Source of the DNA: an uncultured Geobacteraceae bacterium
GTDB taxonomy: Bacteria; Desulfobacterota; Desulfuromonadia; Geobacterales; Pseudopelobacteraceae
Assembly: GCA_903845365.1 (NCBI GenBank)
Contig: CAIMXI010000440.1
Span: 1 to 43,543 of the forward strand
Direction: 5' to 3'
Length of the DNA: 43,543 bases
The notes beneath the pieces were generated by a model, which was not told where the DNA came from, searched no databases, and worked only from the letters and a program-made list of their open reading frames with translations. Below are positions 710 to 8,092 of this stretch, in pieces. Both the position numbers and the translations under genes were made by a program. The stretch's first letter is position 1. Every line of letters starts with the position of its first letter.

Positions 710-3700
710 ATGTGGAACATTTTGCTGGTGTCAATAGTTTTTTTACTTTCAACAACTTCTGTCCTATATGCGGGGCCGGCTTTCGACGGTTATCTTGATG
801 TTCAGCAGCCGGATGGCACCGCCTTCAAAGTACGTAAGCATGGCGATGAATTTCAAAACTGGACAGAAACTGAAAGTGGCCATACCGTTATCAGGAACAA
901 AGACAGTCACGAATGTGAGTACGCAGAACAGAACCCCGATGGAACTCTTCGTGGATCGGGCCAAAAGGTTATCCCTCACCAGAATGCACCGGCCAATATC
1001 CGTAAAAAGCTGAAACCGCCTCGCAACAAAGAAGCCGAAAAATCTCATTCCCAATCGCTGCAGAAAATATACCAGCAACGCACATCAGCCGAATCCTCAA
1101 TATCTACCAATCAATCCTCAGCTACTGCCTCATTTGCCCCCGGTGACTGGACTCCTCTACCCATATCCGGAAGCCGTAAAGTAATTGTGATTCTGGTTAA
1201 TTTTACCGATCGAAGCCTTATTACAAATGCTTCAGGTTGGAGCGACTCCATCTTCAGTACCGCTGCCGGTTTCAAATCAGTCGCCAATTACTACAAGGAC
1301 AATTCGTTCAATACCCTCTCGGTAGTGCCGGTGTCACATACCCAGCCTGGCGGTCCTGCCGGAGTTGTCACCGTTTCGGTTCCATACCTGCATCCTGATA
1401 ACGGCACAGCAGAAAAGACCTGGGTCGCCGCTGCTATTAATGCTGCCGGAAAATATGTGAATTTTGCCTCACTGGATACAAATAACAATGGCTATATTGA
1501 CAGAACCGAAGCGGTCGTATACCTCATTCCGGCCGGTTATGAAGAATCCGGATCTAGCAAAGTTCCAAGTGTCTGGGCGCATTCAACGCCGTATACCAGC
1601 GGTGGCCTTCTTGCCGCCGGAAAGCGCTTTCCGGTATATGCCATGAATGGAGAGTTGAATAACTCAGGCGTACAGCATCCCATGGGTGTCATTGCCCACG
1701 AAATGGGGCACCAGTTCTGCGGCCTGCCCGACCTGTATGACACCTCCGACATTAACCAGGGGATGGGGTATTTTTCAATCATGGCTGGTGGTTCCTGGGG
1801 TTCAGACACTGGAGAGAACAGTGGTACAACCCCTACCAATCTTGATGCCTGGTCCAGGGAGTATCTTGGCTGGACAACACCGGTATCGCCAACATCCTCT
1901 TCCACTCTCACTCTTGCACACCCGCTTTCATCGCAAAATGCTGCTTATAAATTGATTGCTCCCCTTGTCAGCACCTCCGAGTATTTTCTGGTTGAAAACC
2001 GTCAGCCGGTCGGGTGGGATCAGGGAGTCCGGGGAAAAAGCGGTTTTGGTAGCGCCTGGGCCGGCGGACTTCTCATCACGCACATTGACATAACAGCCGG
2101 AACTGATGGCTCCAATGACATCAACGATTACACTGCCAACAGTGGAAGGCAGGGTGTAATACCGGTCCAGGCCAGCACTGTGTCATGCGATATGCTTTCG
2201 TCAGGTGCAACATGCTGGGGGAAGGGAACCACACTCTTCTATCAGGGAAACAACAGCAACTGGGGACCATCAACAGTTCCGAATTCCAACTATTACAGCG
2301 GGGCTGGTACTTCTCAGGAGCTGAAAGGCATTTCCCTCCCCGCAAGCACAATGACCGCAGCATTTGGCATGTCCGCTCCGACTAACGGAGCATGCGGAAG
2401 TTCCAACACTCTGGCGTTCAGTGTTGCTCCATCGACCAACCTCTGCAGTGTGGGAACTCCGTCTGCAGTTTCAGGTAGCGGCACTTGGAGTTGGACCTGC
2501 AGTGGAGTGAACGGCGGCGCATCTGCCAGTTGCACTGCAAATTATGCAATCCAGGCCTGGTCAGTCACCGCCACAACCGACGGCAACGGCACAGTCACTT
2601 GCACATCACCTGTCGATGACGGCGCAACCGCATCATGTGTTGTCACCGCGGCAAGCGGCTATCAGTTGGCTAACTTTACCGACAACAACGTTGACAAACT
2701 GGTTTATGTGACTGGCGGCAGCTACAGCATAGCCAATGTGACCGGCAATCACACCATCGCCGCCACCTTCAGTCAGTTGCCGTACTCCGCAGACAACGGC
2801 TCCTGCGGCAGTAGCAATGGAGGCACGTTTAGTCTTGCCCCCACAACAAACCTATGCGCAACCGGTACGGCATCAACAGTCACAGGAAATGGTTTGTGGA
2901 TATGGAATTGCGTTGGAACCAATAACGGAATAACTGCGAGTTGTTCGGCGTCGATTGCAGCCGCTGATGCCATACCTGTCGCACTGTTACCCCAGACAGG
3001 GCAGACAGTATGCTACGATGCAGCAGGCACAACCGTCACCTGTACCGGAGGGCAGGATGGCGAATTACAAACAGGTCTTGCCTGGCCAACACCCCGTTTT
3101 GTTGATAATGGCGATAAGACGCAGACCGATAAGCTGACAGGTCTGATCTGGAGCAAAGACGCCAATCCTGCAGCCGCCACCAAAACCTGGCAGCAGGCTC
3201 TGGATTACATCAAAACCCTCAACAGCCAAAACTACCTGGGGCATAACGACTGGCGTCTGCCAAACATCAATGAGTTGGCTAGTCTAGTCAACAAAGGACA
3301 GTCCAATACTTCTACCTGGCTGAATGGGCAGGGATTTTTAAATGTCCAGTCCAGTTACTATTGGTCGTCTAGCAGCGGCTCGATCGGTACGAATTACGCC
3401 TGGTACGTGGACGTGAACAGTGGCTTCGTTGGCAATATCAATAGGAGCCTCAACTTCTATGTTTGGCCCGTGCGAACCGGACAGTCTGGGTTATTTGGTA
3501 ATTTGACACTTCCCAGAACAGGTCAAACCACTTGTTATAGTGATAGTGGAGCGACAATCAGTTGCAGTGGAACCGGGCAGGATGGTGAATTGCAAACCGG
3601 TATTGCCTGGTCAACGCCTCGTTTTATTGATAATGGCGATCAGACGCAGACCGATAAGCTGACAGGCCTGATCTGGAGCAAAAACGCCAACCCCGCAGCC

Positions 3701-6700
3701 GGAACCAAAACCTGGCAACAGGCACTGGATTACATCAAGAGTCTGAATAGCCAAAACTATCTGGGTCACAACGACTGGCGTCTGCCAAACATCAACGAGC
3801 TGGAAAGCCTTGGAAACAAAGGGCAGACCAATACCTCTACCTGGCTGAATGGGCTGGGTTTTTTAAACATCCAGTCTAATTTCTATTGGTCGTCTAGCAG
3901 CTACTCCGCCGGTACGAGTTTCGCCTGGCTCGTGAGCATGTTCAATGGCAGCGAGGGCATCTACACTAAGAGCGACTTCAGCTATGTTTGGCCCGTGCGA
4001 GCCGAACAGTATTGGCCCTTTGATTCTTTGCTCATTTCGGTATCCCCAAAATTTGGAATCACCCCGGTTGGTACCTCTACCAACTCTCGCCAGTTATCAA
4101 TCGGCAATCGCGGCAGTAGTACACAGTCTGTCACCTCCATATCCATCACCGGCGCAAACGCCTCTGATTTCACCATTACCACCGGCGGTAGTGCCCCGTG
4201 CGTATCTCTTATTCCCACCCTCGCAGCAGGCGCAAGCTGCACACTCATATTCGACTTTTCACCTGCAAGCAACGGCACAAAGAGCGCTTCACTTGATATC
4301 ACAACCAACGGAACAACCAACAGCATTCCGCTTTCCGGCACTGCCATCTCCACGATATATGGGGTTGTTACTGACCAATCCACCGGCCTACCGGTATCCG
4401 GCGCAACAGTCACCCTTAATACCACTGCTACAGCAACAACAGGCATAGACGGCAGCTATACTTTTGGCGATCTTCCAGCTGCTACCTACAGTATCAGCAT
4501 ATCAAAAACCAGCTACCAGACCATTTCAAAAAGCGGACTTGTAACCACAACAACGTCATCCGCAAATGCTGACATCCTCCTACCGACAATCGGCCCACTT
4601 AATATTACCAGTGCCACGCTCCAATCTGCAACAGTAGGTGAAGATTATTCAAGCAGGGTGATGGTTGTTGGCGGCACTGGTCCTTACACCTTCAACAAAG
4701 TCACCGGATCACTTCCTACCGGCCTTTCACTTGATACATTGAATGGAGCAATTACCGGCACACCAAGCGGCAGCGGCAGCTATACTTTTGCAATCGGGGT
4801 GACAGACGCTGCGGCGGGGTACAGCGAAAAGGAGTATACGATTGACTTGGTGCAAATGTTGCGGATAACTACATCTGTTCTGCCGAGAGGGACAAATAGT
4901 GCAAGTTATATTGCAACGATAAGTGTAATAGGTGGCAAGCCTGGTTACACATACAAGGTAACAAATGGGGAGTACCGTTATTTCATGGGCGCTACTTGGG
5001 AGCCACTTTATTTGAATGAAACATCTGGTGCTATTAGCGGAACCCTAGCAAGTGCGATCGATCGAACTTTCACGGTTACCGTTACTGATGCCACTTCACG
5101 CTCAACCTCGCAGCAGTTGAGCATTGGTGTGGATGAACCACTTTCCATCACAACAACGCAGATTCCTACAGGCACTACAACCAATAGTTACACAGCCACC
5201 CTGACAGCCACCGGAGGTTATGGAGCATACGTCTGGACAATTACAAGCGGCTCACTGCCGACCGGCATTTCCTTGAACCGGTTTACCGGCATTATCAGTG
5301 GACAGACTTCCAGCACAGGCAGCTTTCCGCTCGGCATAACCGTGCAGGATGCAGCCGGGAGAACAGCATCAAAGTCCTTCACCTTAAAAACATCAGCGCC
5401 ACTTGCTATAACCACATCAACATTCTCTGCCGGATATGTCGGTACTTCCTATGCACAAAACATTCTGACCAGCGGCGGCATTGCTCCACTCAGTTTTAGT
5501 TTTGTCGGAGCCCTCCCCACCGGACTAACCCTCGACGCAGCCACCGGTGCCATCAGCGGCATAGCGACTGCCGCCGGCCTTACAAATCTGAGTGTTAGTG
5601 TAACGGACAGCGCATATCCAACACCGGTTACAGTCACCCAATCAATTTCTCTGCGTGTCTGGAATGCACTGAACATCACCACAACCACCATCCCAGGCGG
5701 AACCCAGAAAGCGGCCTACAGTACGACACTTTCCGGCACCGGCGGTGCACAACCTCTTTCGTGGAGTATTGCAACCGGCTCACTGCCTCAAGGAATAACT
5801 ATTGACGGCGCAAGCGGTGTTATAGCTGGAACACCGGCAACCTGCGGTACCTTCCCCATCACCACGCGGCTGACCGATTCAGCAGCAACGCCGAAAAGCG
5901 TGGACAAAGCACTGACGCTAGCCGTCGCCTGTTCAAACGACTATATAATAAGCGGCAACGCCGGTGTCGCCGGTGCAACAGTCACCTATAGTGGCACTAC
6001 CAGCGGAAGCGTAACAGCAGATGGTAGCGGCAGTTACAGCATCGGGCCGCTTATGAACGGAACCTACACCGTGACACCCTCTAAGCCACAATATCTTTTC
6101 ACCCCTGCCTCAAAAACTGTGTCAGTTGATATTGATACTTCTGTTGCGGCATTTACGGCTGTGCAGGATGTAACCGGCCCATTACTGGCTGTTTCGACCT
6201 TGGCCAACAACGCCATAACCAACACCGCTACTCTTAATATCTCCGGAAATGTGACTGATACCAGCGGCGTAGCCAACCTGAAGATCAATGGAACAGATGT
6301 CACTGTCACCAACGGCAGTTTCAGTCATGCACTTACATTGCAAGTTGGCGCTAACACAATTTCCATAATAGCCACCGACACACTTGGCAATAGCACAACC
6401 GAGATCCGCACAATAACATTGGATACAACCGCTCCTGTTTTGACCGTATCCGCACCGGCAGACAACAGCAAAACCGCTCAGCCTCTGGCAACCATTACCG
6501 GGATTATCAGCGAAACATCAACTGTCACAGTCACGCTCAACACCGGCACACCTCAGAATGCTTCAATAACTGGCAACAGCTTTAGTACAGCTATCACCCT
6601 TGCCAGTGGCCTCAACAGCATCACCGTCAAGGCAACCGACCTGGCGGGTAATACTTCAAGCACAGTAAGAACAGTCACCTACGACAACAGCAATCCGTCG

Positions 6701-8092
6701 CTGGCAATCACCAGCCCCATTCAGGATGTCACCATCAACCAGAACAGCATCACCATAAACGGCACCGTCAGCGACACTCAGACTGCGGCAACCGTATCAC
6801 TGAGTTTCAACAACCAGACCTATACACCTACCGTCACCGATGGAACTTTCTCACAGAAACTGACCATTCCCTCTGAAGGAACTTTTGCGATCACGGTGAA
6901 GGCAACTGATGAAGCAGGCAATAGTAGCAGCGTAACAAGGAACGTAATCTACGCCGCACTGGTCAACGGGGCCTGTGGCACAAGTAACGGCATAGCGGTA
7001 AACACCATACCAACTGAAAATCTTTGTACCATCGGGACGGCATCAGCCGTCTCAGGTAGCGGACCTTGGGGATGGACATGTGCAGGAAGCAACAGCGGAA
7101 TTGAAGCAACCTGCTCCTCTGATATCCAGACGTACACCATCACCACCACTGTAACCGGTGGCAACGGCACAGTAAATTGCACAAGCCCTGTGATTTATAA
7201 TACAAACTCAGTTTGCACCATAACTGCGGCCGGCGGTTTCCAACTTGCTACCTTCGCAGACAACACAATTGACAAGGTGTCGTTACTTATCGGCGGCAGC
7301 TATACAATTAACAACGTAACCGCTAATCATATTGTTGTTGCAACCTTTACAGATAGTCAGAAACCTGCCGTATCTGCCTTCATCATTCCTGCTTCAGCGA
7401 CAACGCTTAGCGTAGCCATATCTACCTTCACAGCCACTGACAATGCTGCGGTAACTGGATATCTGTTAACCGAAACCGCAACGGCACCTATTTCAACTGA
7501 TACTGGCTGGAATACAAGCAAGCCCACCAGTTACACATTCAGCAATATCCCTGTTGGTGTAGCTACACAGAAGACTCTTTATGCTTGGGTGAAAGATGCT
7601 GTGGGAAATGTCTCAACGAGTGCGACAGCAAGCACAACAATCACACTGCCAGATGTAACTGCACCAACCATAACCACCTTCACCATCCCGACTAGCGCAC
7701 AGCTAACCGTGCCGGTAACGACCTTCGCTGCGACAGATAACGTTGCCGTCAGCGGTTACTGCATAACCGAGACAAACAGCTCTGCCGGTTGTAGCTGGAG
7801 CGCCACTGCACCAAAGATATACACCTTCACCACAGCAGGAAATAAAACGCTTTACGCATGGGTCAAGGATAGCACTGGAAACATTTCGCTTCCTTTATCT
7901 GCAATCTTGAACGTCAGTTCAAAGGCTGGTGACTGCGACGCAAACGGTTCTGTAACCATCGCCGAAGTACAATCGGCCATCAACATGTTCTTGGGATTGA
8001 AGGCTGTAGAAGTTTGTGTGGACCAAGATTCAAGTAGTGGTGTCTCCATTGCTGAAGTACAGAAGGTGATTAACAGCTTTTTAGGGTTGTAG
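710..8092 (+). CDS. Giant secreted M6-family metalloprotease with DUF1566 and Ig-like modules
   Basis: A 2460-residue exported protein. A signal peptide (about residues 1-21, ending VLYAG) precedes an M6 (immune-inhibitor-A-like) protease domain with zinc motif H330-E331-M-G-H334 and G338..D341. Downstream modules in order: a Cys-rich NGACG repeat with a beta repeat (about 560-690); a second NGACG repeat (about 697-750); two DUF1566/Lcl C-terminal modules (about 757-924 and 928-1099); a choice-of-anchor-D domain; a carboxypeptidase-regulatory-like domain; five putative-Ig (He_PIG) repeats; a second CarboxypepD-like domain; three bacterial Ig-like repeats; a third NGACG and beta repeat; two TDNxAVxGY repeats; and a C-terminal dockerin-like pair of EF-hand loops (D-x-N/D-x-S, each followed by an IAEVQ helix). 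CGGAG at 697-701 fits the ATG at 710. It probably degrades or binds extracellular polymer. The DUF1566 ends carry a striking substitution pattern (see findings). Confidence 0.9.
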   Translation: MWNILLVSIVFLLSTTSVLYAGPAFDGYLDVQQPDGTAFKVRKHGDEFQNWTETESGHTVIRNKDSHECEYAEQNPDGTLRGSGQKVIPHQNAPANIRKKLKPPRNKEAEKSHSQSLQKIYQQRTSAESSISTNQSSATASFAPGDWTPLPISGSRKVIVILVNFTDRSLITNASGWSDSIFSTAAGFKSVANYYKDNSFNTLSVVPVSHTQPGGPAGVVTVSVPYLHPDNGTAEKTWVAAAINAAGKYVNFASLDTNNNGYIDRTEAVVYLIPAGYEESGSSKVPSVWAHSTPYTSGGLLAAGKRFPVYAMNGELNNSGVQHPMGVIAHEMGHQFCGLPDLYDTSDINQGMGYFSIMAGGSWGSDTGENSGTTPTNLDAWSREYLGWTTPVSPTSSSTLTLAHPLSSQNAAYKLIAPLVSTSEYFLVENRQPVGWDQGVRGKSGFGSAWAGGLLITHIDITAGTDGSNDINDYTANSGRQGVIPVQASTVSCDMLSSGATCWGKGTTLFYQGNNSNWGPSTVPNSNYYSGAGTSQELKGISLPASTMTAAFGMSAPTNGACGSSNTLAFSVAPSTNLCSVGTPSAVSGSGTWSWTCSGVNGGASASCTANYAIQAWSVTATTDGNGTVTCTSPVDDGATASCVVTAASGYQLANFTDNNVDKLVYVTGGSYSIANVTGNHTIAATFSQLPYSADNGSCGSSNGGTFSLAPTTNLCATGTASTVTGNGLWIWNCVGTNNGITASCSASIAAADAIPVALLPQTGQTVCYDAAGTTVTCTGGQDGELQTGLAWPTPRFVDNGDKTQTDKLTGLIWSKDANPAAATKTWQQALDYIKTLNSQNYLGHNDWRLPNINELASLVNKGQSNTSTWLNGQGFLNVQSSYYWSSSSGSIGTNYAWYVDVNSGFVGNINRSLNFYVWPVRTGQSGLFGNLTLPRTGQTTCYSDSGATISCSGTGQDGELQTGIAWSTPRFIDNGDQTQTDKLTGLIWSKNANPAAGTKTWQQALDYIKSLNSQNYLGHNDWRLPNINELESLGNKGQTNTSTWLNGLGFLNIQSNFYWSSSSYSAGTSFAWLVSMFNGSEGIYTKSDFSYVWPVRAEQYWPFDSLLISVSPKFGITPVGTSTNSRQLSIGNRGSSTQSVTSISITGANASDFTITTGGSAPCVSLIPTLAAGASCTLIFDFSPASNGTKSASLDITTNGTTNSIPLSGTAISTIYGVVTDQSTGLPVSGATVTLNTTATATTGIDGSYTFGDLPAATYSISISKTSYQTISKSGLVTTTTSSANADILLPTIGPLNITSATLQSATVGEDYSSRVMVVGGTGPYTFNKVTGSLPTGLSLDTLNGAITGTPSGSGSYTFAIGVTDAAAGYSEKEYTIDLVQMLRITTSVLPRGTNSASYIATISVIGGKPGYTYKVTNGEYRYFMGATWEPLYLNETSGAISGTLASAIDRTFTVTVTDATSRSTSQQLSIGVDEPLSITTTQIPTGTTTNSYTATLTATGGYGAYVWTITSGSLPTGISLNRFTGIISGQTSSTGSFPLGITVQDAAGRTASKSFTLKTSAPLAITTSTFSAGYVGTSYAQNILTSGGIAPLSFSFVGALPTGLTLDAATGAISGIATAAGLTNLSVSVTDSAYPTPVTVTQSISLRVWNALNITTTTIPGGTQKAAYSTTLSGTGGAQPLSWSIATGSLPQGITIDGASGVIAGTPATCGTFPITTRLTDSAATPKSVDKALTLAVACSNDYIISGNAGVAGATVTYSGTTSGSVTADGSGSYSIGPLMNGTYTVTPSKPQYLFTPASKTVSVDIDTSVAAFTAVQDVTGPLLAVSTLANNAITNTATLNISGNVTDTSGVANLKINGTDVTVTNGSFSHALTLQVGANTISIIATDTLGNSTTEIRTITLDTTAPVLTVSAPADNSKTAQPLATITGIISETSTVTVTLNTGTPQNASITGNSFSTAITLASGLNSITVKATDLAGNTSSTVRTVTYDNSNPSLAITSPIQDVTINQNSITINGTVSDTQTAATVSLSFNNQTYTPTVTDGTFSQKLTIPSEGTFAITVKATDEAGNSSSVTRNVIYAALVNGACGTSNGIAVNTIPTENLCTIGTASAVSGSGPWGWTCAGSNSGIEATCSSDIQTYTITTTVTGGNGTVNCTSPVIYNTNSVCTITAAGGFQLATFADNTIDKVSLLIGGSYTINNVTANHIVVATFTDSQKPAVSAFIIPASATTLSVAISTFTATDNAAVTGYLLTETATAPISTDTGWNTSKPTSYTFSNIPVGVATQKTLYAWVKDAVGNVSTSATASTTITLPDVTAPTITTFTIPTSAQLTVPVTTFAATDNVAVSGYCITETNSSAGCSWSATAPKIYTFTTAGNKTLYAWVKDSTGNISLPLSAILNVSSKAGDCDANGSVTIAEVQSAINMFLGLKAVEVCVDQDSSSGVSIAEVQKVINSFLGL
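3353..3475 (+). other. Putative DGR variable region 1 (first DUF1566 module)
   Basis: This is codons 882-922 of the M6 protease, the last part of the first DUF1566 module, ending in YVWPVR. Against the equal-length segment 3878-4000 it differs at 21 of 41 codons. Differences are almost confined to codon positions 1 and 2 (30 of 33 bases), and 24 of those 30 involve an adenine. Codons ending in C keep that C while the first two bases change, for example ggc/tac, gac/agc, ctc/gac. The 20 unchanged codons are identical at the DNA level. This matches adenine mutagenesis of AAC-type codons by a diversity-generating retroelement. DUF1566 belongs to the C-type-lectin/FGE-like folds that such elements diversify (family knowledge). 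No template repeat is seen in the window. Confidence 0.65.
3878..4000 (+). other. Putative DGR variable region 2 (second DUF1566 module)
   Basis: Codons 1057-1097 of the M6 protease, at the end of the second DUF1566 module, also ending in YVWPVR. It aligns without gaps to 3353-3475. The codon-position bias described there is shared, and the identical 3' block of 18 bases (tat gtt tgg ccc gtg cga) lies where DGR variable regions carry their homing-initiation sequence. The upstream DUF1566 part (about 3572-3865 against 3047-3340) instead differs mostly by third-position silent changes, so the two modules arose by duplication and only this part evolved by directed amino-acid change. Diversifying selection alone is the main alternative. 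Confidence 0.65.

Follow-up and report, generated by a model that had tools for sequence, protein, structure and literature searches.

Variable regions of diversity-generating retroelement type, probably orphaned, in tandem DUF1566 modules of a secreted M6 metalloprotease from an uncultured Geobacteraceae bacterium

In the sections of the published reports on which we draw here, DUF1566 is described as the most common Pfam domain among the targets of diversity-generating retroelements (DGRs) (PMC6642488, PMC4159848), and the variable regions (VRs) are placed almost exclusively near the 3' ends of genes (PMC7517822). Remote variable proteins are known for cyanobacterial DGRs (PMC7517822), and 31 DGRs have been listed with multiple VRs overlapping a single target open reading frame (PMC6642488), so that two VRs in one gene are not new. 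Furthermore, target genes without a reverse transcriptase (RT) or template have been reported in isolates of Treponema denticola (PMC4891356), and a DGR with two VRs has been listed for Geobacter lovleyi SZ (PMC3521204). Here, we describe two segments, VR1 and VR2, that lie in tandem DUF1566 (now Lcl_C) modules of an apparently secreted M6 family metalloprotease encoded in contig CAIMXI010000440.1 of an uncultured Geobacteraceae bacterium (GenBank assembly GCA_903845365.1). This whole 43,543-nt stretch is referred to as the window; it is contig C440 of the assembly labelled G000, which comprises 5.51 Mb in 511 contigs and is rated 99.6% complete with 3.1% contamination.

The window protein shares with the described DUF1566 targets both the domain and the placement of the VR within it (PMC4159848, PMC6642488); unlike those targets, as these surveys present them, it has its VRs midway along a protease of 2460 aa, and their cassette was not found in the assembly. 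As in the portion of the T. denticola report considered here (PMC4891356), VRs occur without RT or template and are recognized through the templates of other strains or organisms, and loss has been proposed there too; the target genes, however, are different, and here the closest template comes from another species, the own template not having been found. With the cyanobacterial systems, the window shares VRs that are scattered over the genome, away from an RT, but the VRs of those systems are described as lying near gene 3' ends with the DGR present (PMC7517822), whereas the window VRs are internal and their DGR was not found. The kind of target site is itself known; what sets this case apart is that tandem VRs lie internally in a protease and that several templates are missing. 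No description of orphaned DUF1566 VRs in this bacterial group was found in titles and abstract openings, among the matches listed.

A further comparison is with a cassette of the genome labelled G079 (contig CAIUWK010000026.1, taken as uncultured Geobacter sp. E14_bin-1665), which contains a VWPVR-type template and has DUF1566 targets to either side; in one of these targets, the VR is followed by the domains that also come after the VR in the window protein. In G079, however, RT, avd and template are all present, template and VR differ at adenine (A) sites only, and the long target has one Lcl_C stretch. The VR of this 1003-aa target, which is encoded directly beside the RT, departs from the template at 17 A sites but at 0 non-A sites. 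Over 728 aa that take in the second Lcl_C module and the later domains, the window protein and the target share 43% identity; the choice-of-anchor-D domain and the subsequent domains of the window protein are homologous to the post-VR part of the target. VR2 is followed by ~1,360 codons, away from the usual, though not universal, position at the 3' end of the gene. Because the VR of the RT-linked G079 target is internal as well, being followed by ~800 codons, an internal position does not exclude DGR action.

VR1 and VR2 align without gaps over 41 codons each, in frame with the target gene, and differ at 21 codons, the other 20 being identical. The 33 base differences are distributed over codon positions 1, 2 and 3 as 11/19/3; A is involved in 24 of them, all at codon positions 1 or 2, and in 12 of the differing codon pairs both codons have C as their third base. 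By contrast, the 303 nt upstream of the two VRs contain 41 base differences that are distributed as 8/5/28. The contrast between the VRs and the upstream stretches in the split of differences between positions 1-2 and position 3 is significant (p=2.5e-7) and is seen both at third positions (3/41 in the VRs vs 28/101 upstream, p=0.007) and at positions 1-2 (30/82 vs 13/202, p=1.4e-9). Taken alone, the A-enrichment is weak (24/33 differences in the VRs vs 20/41 upstream); it turned strong once an external template was applied. An initial sequence-only reading of the window had reported the same counts (33 differences over 41 codons, 30 at positions 1-2 and 24 with A), which were reproduced exactly, and its statement that the upstream halves differ mainly by silent changes accords with the codon-position distribution given above. 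Both VRs end in an identical 18-base block, the only two exact copies of which in the assembly are these; judging from its position, this block could be a homing start site.

Templates were sought in other genomes. Among 196 genomes searched with the RT of contig C63 of G000, 64 gave a match at E 1e-10 or better, and the loci around the RT matches, plus further stretches, were scanned for DUF1566-type templates. In the scanned loci of relatives, adenine-rich templates of this type adjoin RT sequence. The template of G025, which belongs to the same genus (taken as Desulfuromonadaceae bacterium STCSWMC_26), encodes the peptide YWSGSTNANNTNNAWNVNMNNGNVNNNNKTNNNNVWPVR; templates of the VWPVR type are present in G079, G121 (both taken as uncultured Geobacter bins) and G074 (taken as Geobacter sp. 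UBA6802), and those of the VRCVR or VRLVR type in G069, G058 and G074. Four of these templates were applied to 120 nt of the window VRs. With the G025 template, VR1 and VR2 differ at 28/48 A sites and 4/72 other sites (p=1.3e-10), and 16/19 AAY codons differ as against 4/21 other codons (p=9e-5). The corresponding values are 28/45 A and 4/75 other sites for the G079 template, 28/46 and 4/74 for that of G069, and 22/36 and 10/84 (p=8e-8) for that of G058, the most distant of the four. Since templates located beside RTs in relatives predict the sites at which VR1 and VR2 differ, the segments are supported as DGR-type VRs, and the RT-linked cassettes of relatives also share their VR architecture. 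The earlier proposal that these segments are DGR-type VRs is thereby supported, and we consider their DGR origin very likely.

A pattern derived from three VRs had no matches in public genome contigs, a set that may not include the records of this genome, and a looser VR/template pattern had none in viral contigs. The template pattern matched four genome contigs, and a looser template pattern matched two viral contigs. The latter two, both from IMG/VR (L204 and L205), bear adenine-rich DUF1566-like templates; a scripted scan of the examined stretches of these contigs did not find a DGR-type RT motif.

The window VRs are not the only ones of this kind in the genome. Lcl_C gives 47 matches in G000 at E 0.001 or better, 46 of them above the cut-off, in frames of up to 6,542 codons, and eight such VRs were recognized on four contigs, in three template groups. 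Compared with VR2, the VR C406:14003, which lies in another gene, has differences at 24/46 A sites, 4/71 others and 1/39 third positions, and silent ones at 1/17 comparable codons in the VR vs 17/30 upstream (p=5e-4); the comparison with VR1 gives 26/46 A and 6/71 other sites, and silent differences at 3/17 vs 20/34 (p=0.007). The variation is template-like, and the window VRs and the C406:14003 VR agree with one common template across two genes. In the second group (C339.1, C339.2 and C406.12686), 66, 67 and 64 of 71 non-A sites match the G025 template, from which these VRs depart at 18, 23 and 23 of 46 A sites, respectively. The third group is a pair on C138 that differs at 29/46 A and 4/71 other sites. 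The sequence-only reading had confined the system to two sites in one protease; the two sites are there, but this scope was too narrow given that VRs of the same and of two other templates are located in other genes.

Neither a DUF1566 template nor an RT for it was found in the assembly. The RVT_1 profile matches four places in G000, on contigs C63, C378, C446 and C115, of which the last two resemble, by inspection, pieces of group II introns. C63 and C378 are DGRs by their layout, with a lectin-like target, an avd-like gene (at C63, NF033474 with E 2.9e-18, below its cut-off; at C378, by resemblance), an adenine-rich template and a GNLLSQ-containing RT. Both templates, however, encode a C-type-lectin tail unrelated to DUF1566, which we take to be FGE-like, and the RT frame of C378 is broken. 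RT queries from C63 and G079 match only these two RTs in the assembly, and the G079 Avd query gives only a weak match there, at C378 (E 0.4). Searches of the assembly with VR1, the G025 template, the 18-base block (at most 3 mismatches) and the template pattern recovered VRs and chance matches only, the short weak matches of the VR1 and G025-template searches not being inspected individually. With up to 3 mismatches, the 18-base block occurs at 15 places in the assembly, namely 13 in Lcl_C modules, one in a truncated module tail close to the C380 end and one on C497, none of which is a third copy in template form. The C497 match was rejected as a chance one; its frame reads, by eye, like an ABC transporter ATPase. 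Two things that the sequence-only reading had proposed to look for, a third copy with adenines at the variable positions and a DGR-type RT with an Avd-like gene beside a DUF1566 template, were not found in the assembly, whose two resident DGRs have unrelated templates.

We hypothesize that VR1 and VR2 are authentic DGR VRs that are now orphaned, the machinery having been lost from the lineage, and assign to this reading a probability of about 0.62; once a DGR origin is granted, the loss of RT and template is itself probable. Under this scenario, an ancestral RT would have copied an adenine-rich DUF1566 template, placing varied bases opposite adenines, and the cDNA would have taken the place of the 3' portion in each Lcl_C module. 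A single template could have written VR1, VR2 and the VR of the C406 gene. This writing would have come after the modules had duplicated and drifted, and therefore the VRs agree at silent sites and the upstream halves do not. Template and RT would have been lost later, such that frozen, slowly drifting surfaces with a putative ligand-binding role remain on the secreted M6 metalloprotease and other large proteins.

The comparison of VRs with their templates in relatives, which included only full-length (39-codon) VRs recognized by motif and left out one further G058 VR, is in general agreement with such a loss. In the three relatives G121, G069 and G079, all with an intact RT core, 5/5 full-length VRs (one G079 VR with an extra codon being excluded) show 0 non-A differences from the template, and the VR-VR pairs in G121 and G069 show 0 and 0, as compared to 4-9 in the within-group VR pairs of G000. 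The VRs of the first G074 cassette, in which the script did not find an RT core, have 1 and 8 non-A differences. The G025 cassette is decayed, its avd being a 29-codon stump and a GNLTSQ or YxDD core not having been found in its RT; G000 looks further along the same decay path. Two further G025 VRs (L149, C6:119000-128000) have 18 and 19 non-A differences from the template and 4 between them, and appear to belong to another, unseen template. Two small genes that by eye resemble a HEPN/nucleotidyltransferase pair adjoin the decayed G025 RT (L148 4675-5363).

Several observations weigh against the loss of the machinery or against the evidence for it. G058 and the second cassette of G074 have an intact RT core and yet show 2/81 non-A differences in one VR each, so that inactivity cannot be deduced from a handful of such differences, and the G025 VRs of the matching template have only 0 and 1 although the RT core was not found. 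Because of this spread among relatives, non-A counts are only a rough clock. Of 71 non-A sites, the window VRs themselves mismatch the G025 template at 15 and 13, which means that their own template has never been seen. In the C339 group, the silent-site contrast with the upstream halves is not significant (6/19 v 22/50, p=0.42; 7/20 v 21/34, p=0.09). Finally, absence from the assembly is not absence from the cell, because the assembly is split into 511 contigs and the G069 cassette sits alone on a contig of 4.6 kb. The possibility that silent change is depressed in the VRs of all module pairs was considered and rejected: such a depression plainly marks the window pair but is missing from several others, and for the C339 group it does not reach significance.

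The fragmentation of the assembly speaks for the principal rival to orphaned VRs, according to which the DGR is still present in the organism, on a short contig, a plasmid or a phage that is missing from the assembly or bin, and diversifies remote sites in trans. Remote targets are indeed known from the cyanobacterial work discussed above (PMC7517822), and the two IMG/VR contigs carry an adenine-rich DUF1566-like template, though no DGR-type RT motif was found on them. However, this explanation requires that three template groups are all missing from a 99.6% complete assembly, and it has to accommodate the 4-9 non-A differences of the G000 VR pairs as against 0 in G121 and G069; we regard it as unlikely, albeit worth serious consideration. 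A living dispersed network, in which several templates on an unassembled element still rewrite, in trans, the internal lectin modules of both the protease and very large proteins, and in which one gene can be served by more than one template group, seems somewhat less likely still. The initial proposal of a DGR that acts on the protease in trans at present is not supported, given the non-A drift and the fact that searches of the assembly did not find a template, RT or Avd of the DUF1566 type.

Far less probable is ordinary hypervariability of lectin-like modules, caused by positive selection or by recombination between paralogous modules and involving no retroelement. Such modules generally vary at the same surface codons, and since the adenines of the templates code for exposed residues, unrelated modules should also show some mild enrichment of differences at A sites. 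Accordingly, among 55 control module pairs (10 from C404 and 45 from C510, the latter being the modules recognized by the motif of the script), 14 have a one-sided p <0.05, uncorrected. The lowest value is 0.0035, so that no control pair reaches 0.003, whereas the seven within-group VR pairs have p from 1.3e-11 to 1.7e-6. In the pairwise comparison of modules, 45 of the 47 were entered (two partial ones were omitted), 43 were recognized by motif, and 859 of 903 pairs had at least 30 comparable codons. What argues for VRs is that, within groups, non-A sites hardly change at all; hypervariability of the ordinary kind leaves unexplained both this avoidance of non-A template sites within three groups and the silent-site agreement of VRs in two genes whose upstream halves differ.

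That one of the resident DGRs rewrites the window sites in trans is highly improbable: C63 has avd, an adenine-rich template and a GNLLSQ RT, and C378 the same layout, but both templates encode the non-DUF1566 lectin tail, the C378 RT frame is broken, and a DUF1566 template for either RT to copy was not found. An assembly or strain-mixing artefact can practically be dismissed, despite the fragmented assembly and the estimated contamination of 3.1%, given that a single open reading frame of 2460 aa contains both VRs in frame and the pattern recurs on four contigs.

The domains of the target protein were assigned by profile searches as an M6 metalloprotease domain, two Lcl_C modules, and choice-of-anchor-D, carboxypeptidase-regulatory-like and Ig-like domains (Table 1). 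An N-terminal hydrophobic stretch is interpreted, by eye, as a signal peptide, and a HEMGH motif can be read in the translation of the M6 domain. Both modules, with 116.9 and 109 bits, exceed the curated cut-off of Lcl_C (PF07603, formerly DUF1566), which is 34.9. The second module was modelled from a 24-sequence alignment with a predicted local distance difference test score (pLDDT) of 90.2. The best structural match of the model is the C-terminal domain of Legionella Lcl (8q4e; Foldseek E 1.5e-6, Z 12.4, root-mean-square deviation (rmsd) 3.2 over 117), which is also matched by sequence (E 8.8e-6). It is followed by further C-type-lectin folds, DGR proteins among them: TvpA (2y3c) gives Z 9.0 and rmsd 3.3 over 127, and Mtd (1yu3) gives Z 7.8 and rmsd 3.8 over 124, the latter being in the range (Z under 8) in which, by the caution of the tool, a match may reflect merely a common arrangement. 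The predicted model thus supports the C-type-lectin-like fold that had been suggested for DUF1566 at the outset.

Table 1. Features of the target gene in the window (coordinates in nt of the window)
Feature	Coordinates	Strand	Evidence or use
Target gene, 2460-aa protein	710..8092	+	Open reading frame; domain profile searches
M6 family metalloprotease domain (TIGR03296), residues 160-445	1187..2044	+	E 3.5e-49
First Lcl_C / DUF1566 module	3119..3475	+	E 2.5e-33
VR1	3353..3475	+	VR1/VR2 comparison, template tests
Invariant 18-base 3' block of VR1	3458..3475	+	Sequence comparison
Second Lcl_C / DUF1566 module; predicted C-type-lectin-like fold	3644..4000	+	E 7.2e-31; model
VR2	3878..4000	+	VR1/VR2 comparison, template tests
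Invariant 18-base 3' block of VR2, identical to the VR1 block	3983..4000	+	Sequence comparison
Choice-of-anchor-D domain after VR2, residues 1111-1202	4040..4315	+	Profile match

The presence of tandem internal VRs in a secreted metalloprotease suggests that diversification may have been used to vary what the protease binds. In more general terms, DGR VRs can be recognized without their own template or RT, via silent-site agreement among paralogous modules and the templates of relatives. If the VRs are relics, this genus shows the fate of hypervariable binding surfaces after the loss of the mutator, with G025 as the holder of a decayed cassette whose two VRs have hardly departed from the template at non-A sites.

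Additional observations concern the target protein and the other Lcl_C genes. The C-terminal tail of the target protein (window 7930-8092) is dockerin-like by eye, and a very similar tail ends an 838-aa protein of G025 (locus L148 7821-10337). Contigs C406 and C510 contain open frames of 6249 and 6542 codons, respectively, that are packed with Lcl_C modules, and VRs of two template groups occur together in the C406 frame. Broken Lcl_C pieces are located beside unrelated sequence in the first 700 bases of C339 (L064) and at the end of C380 (L063).

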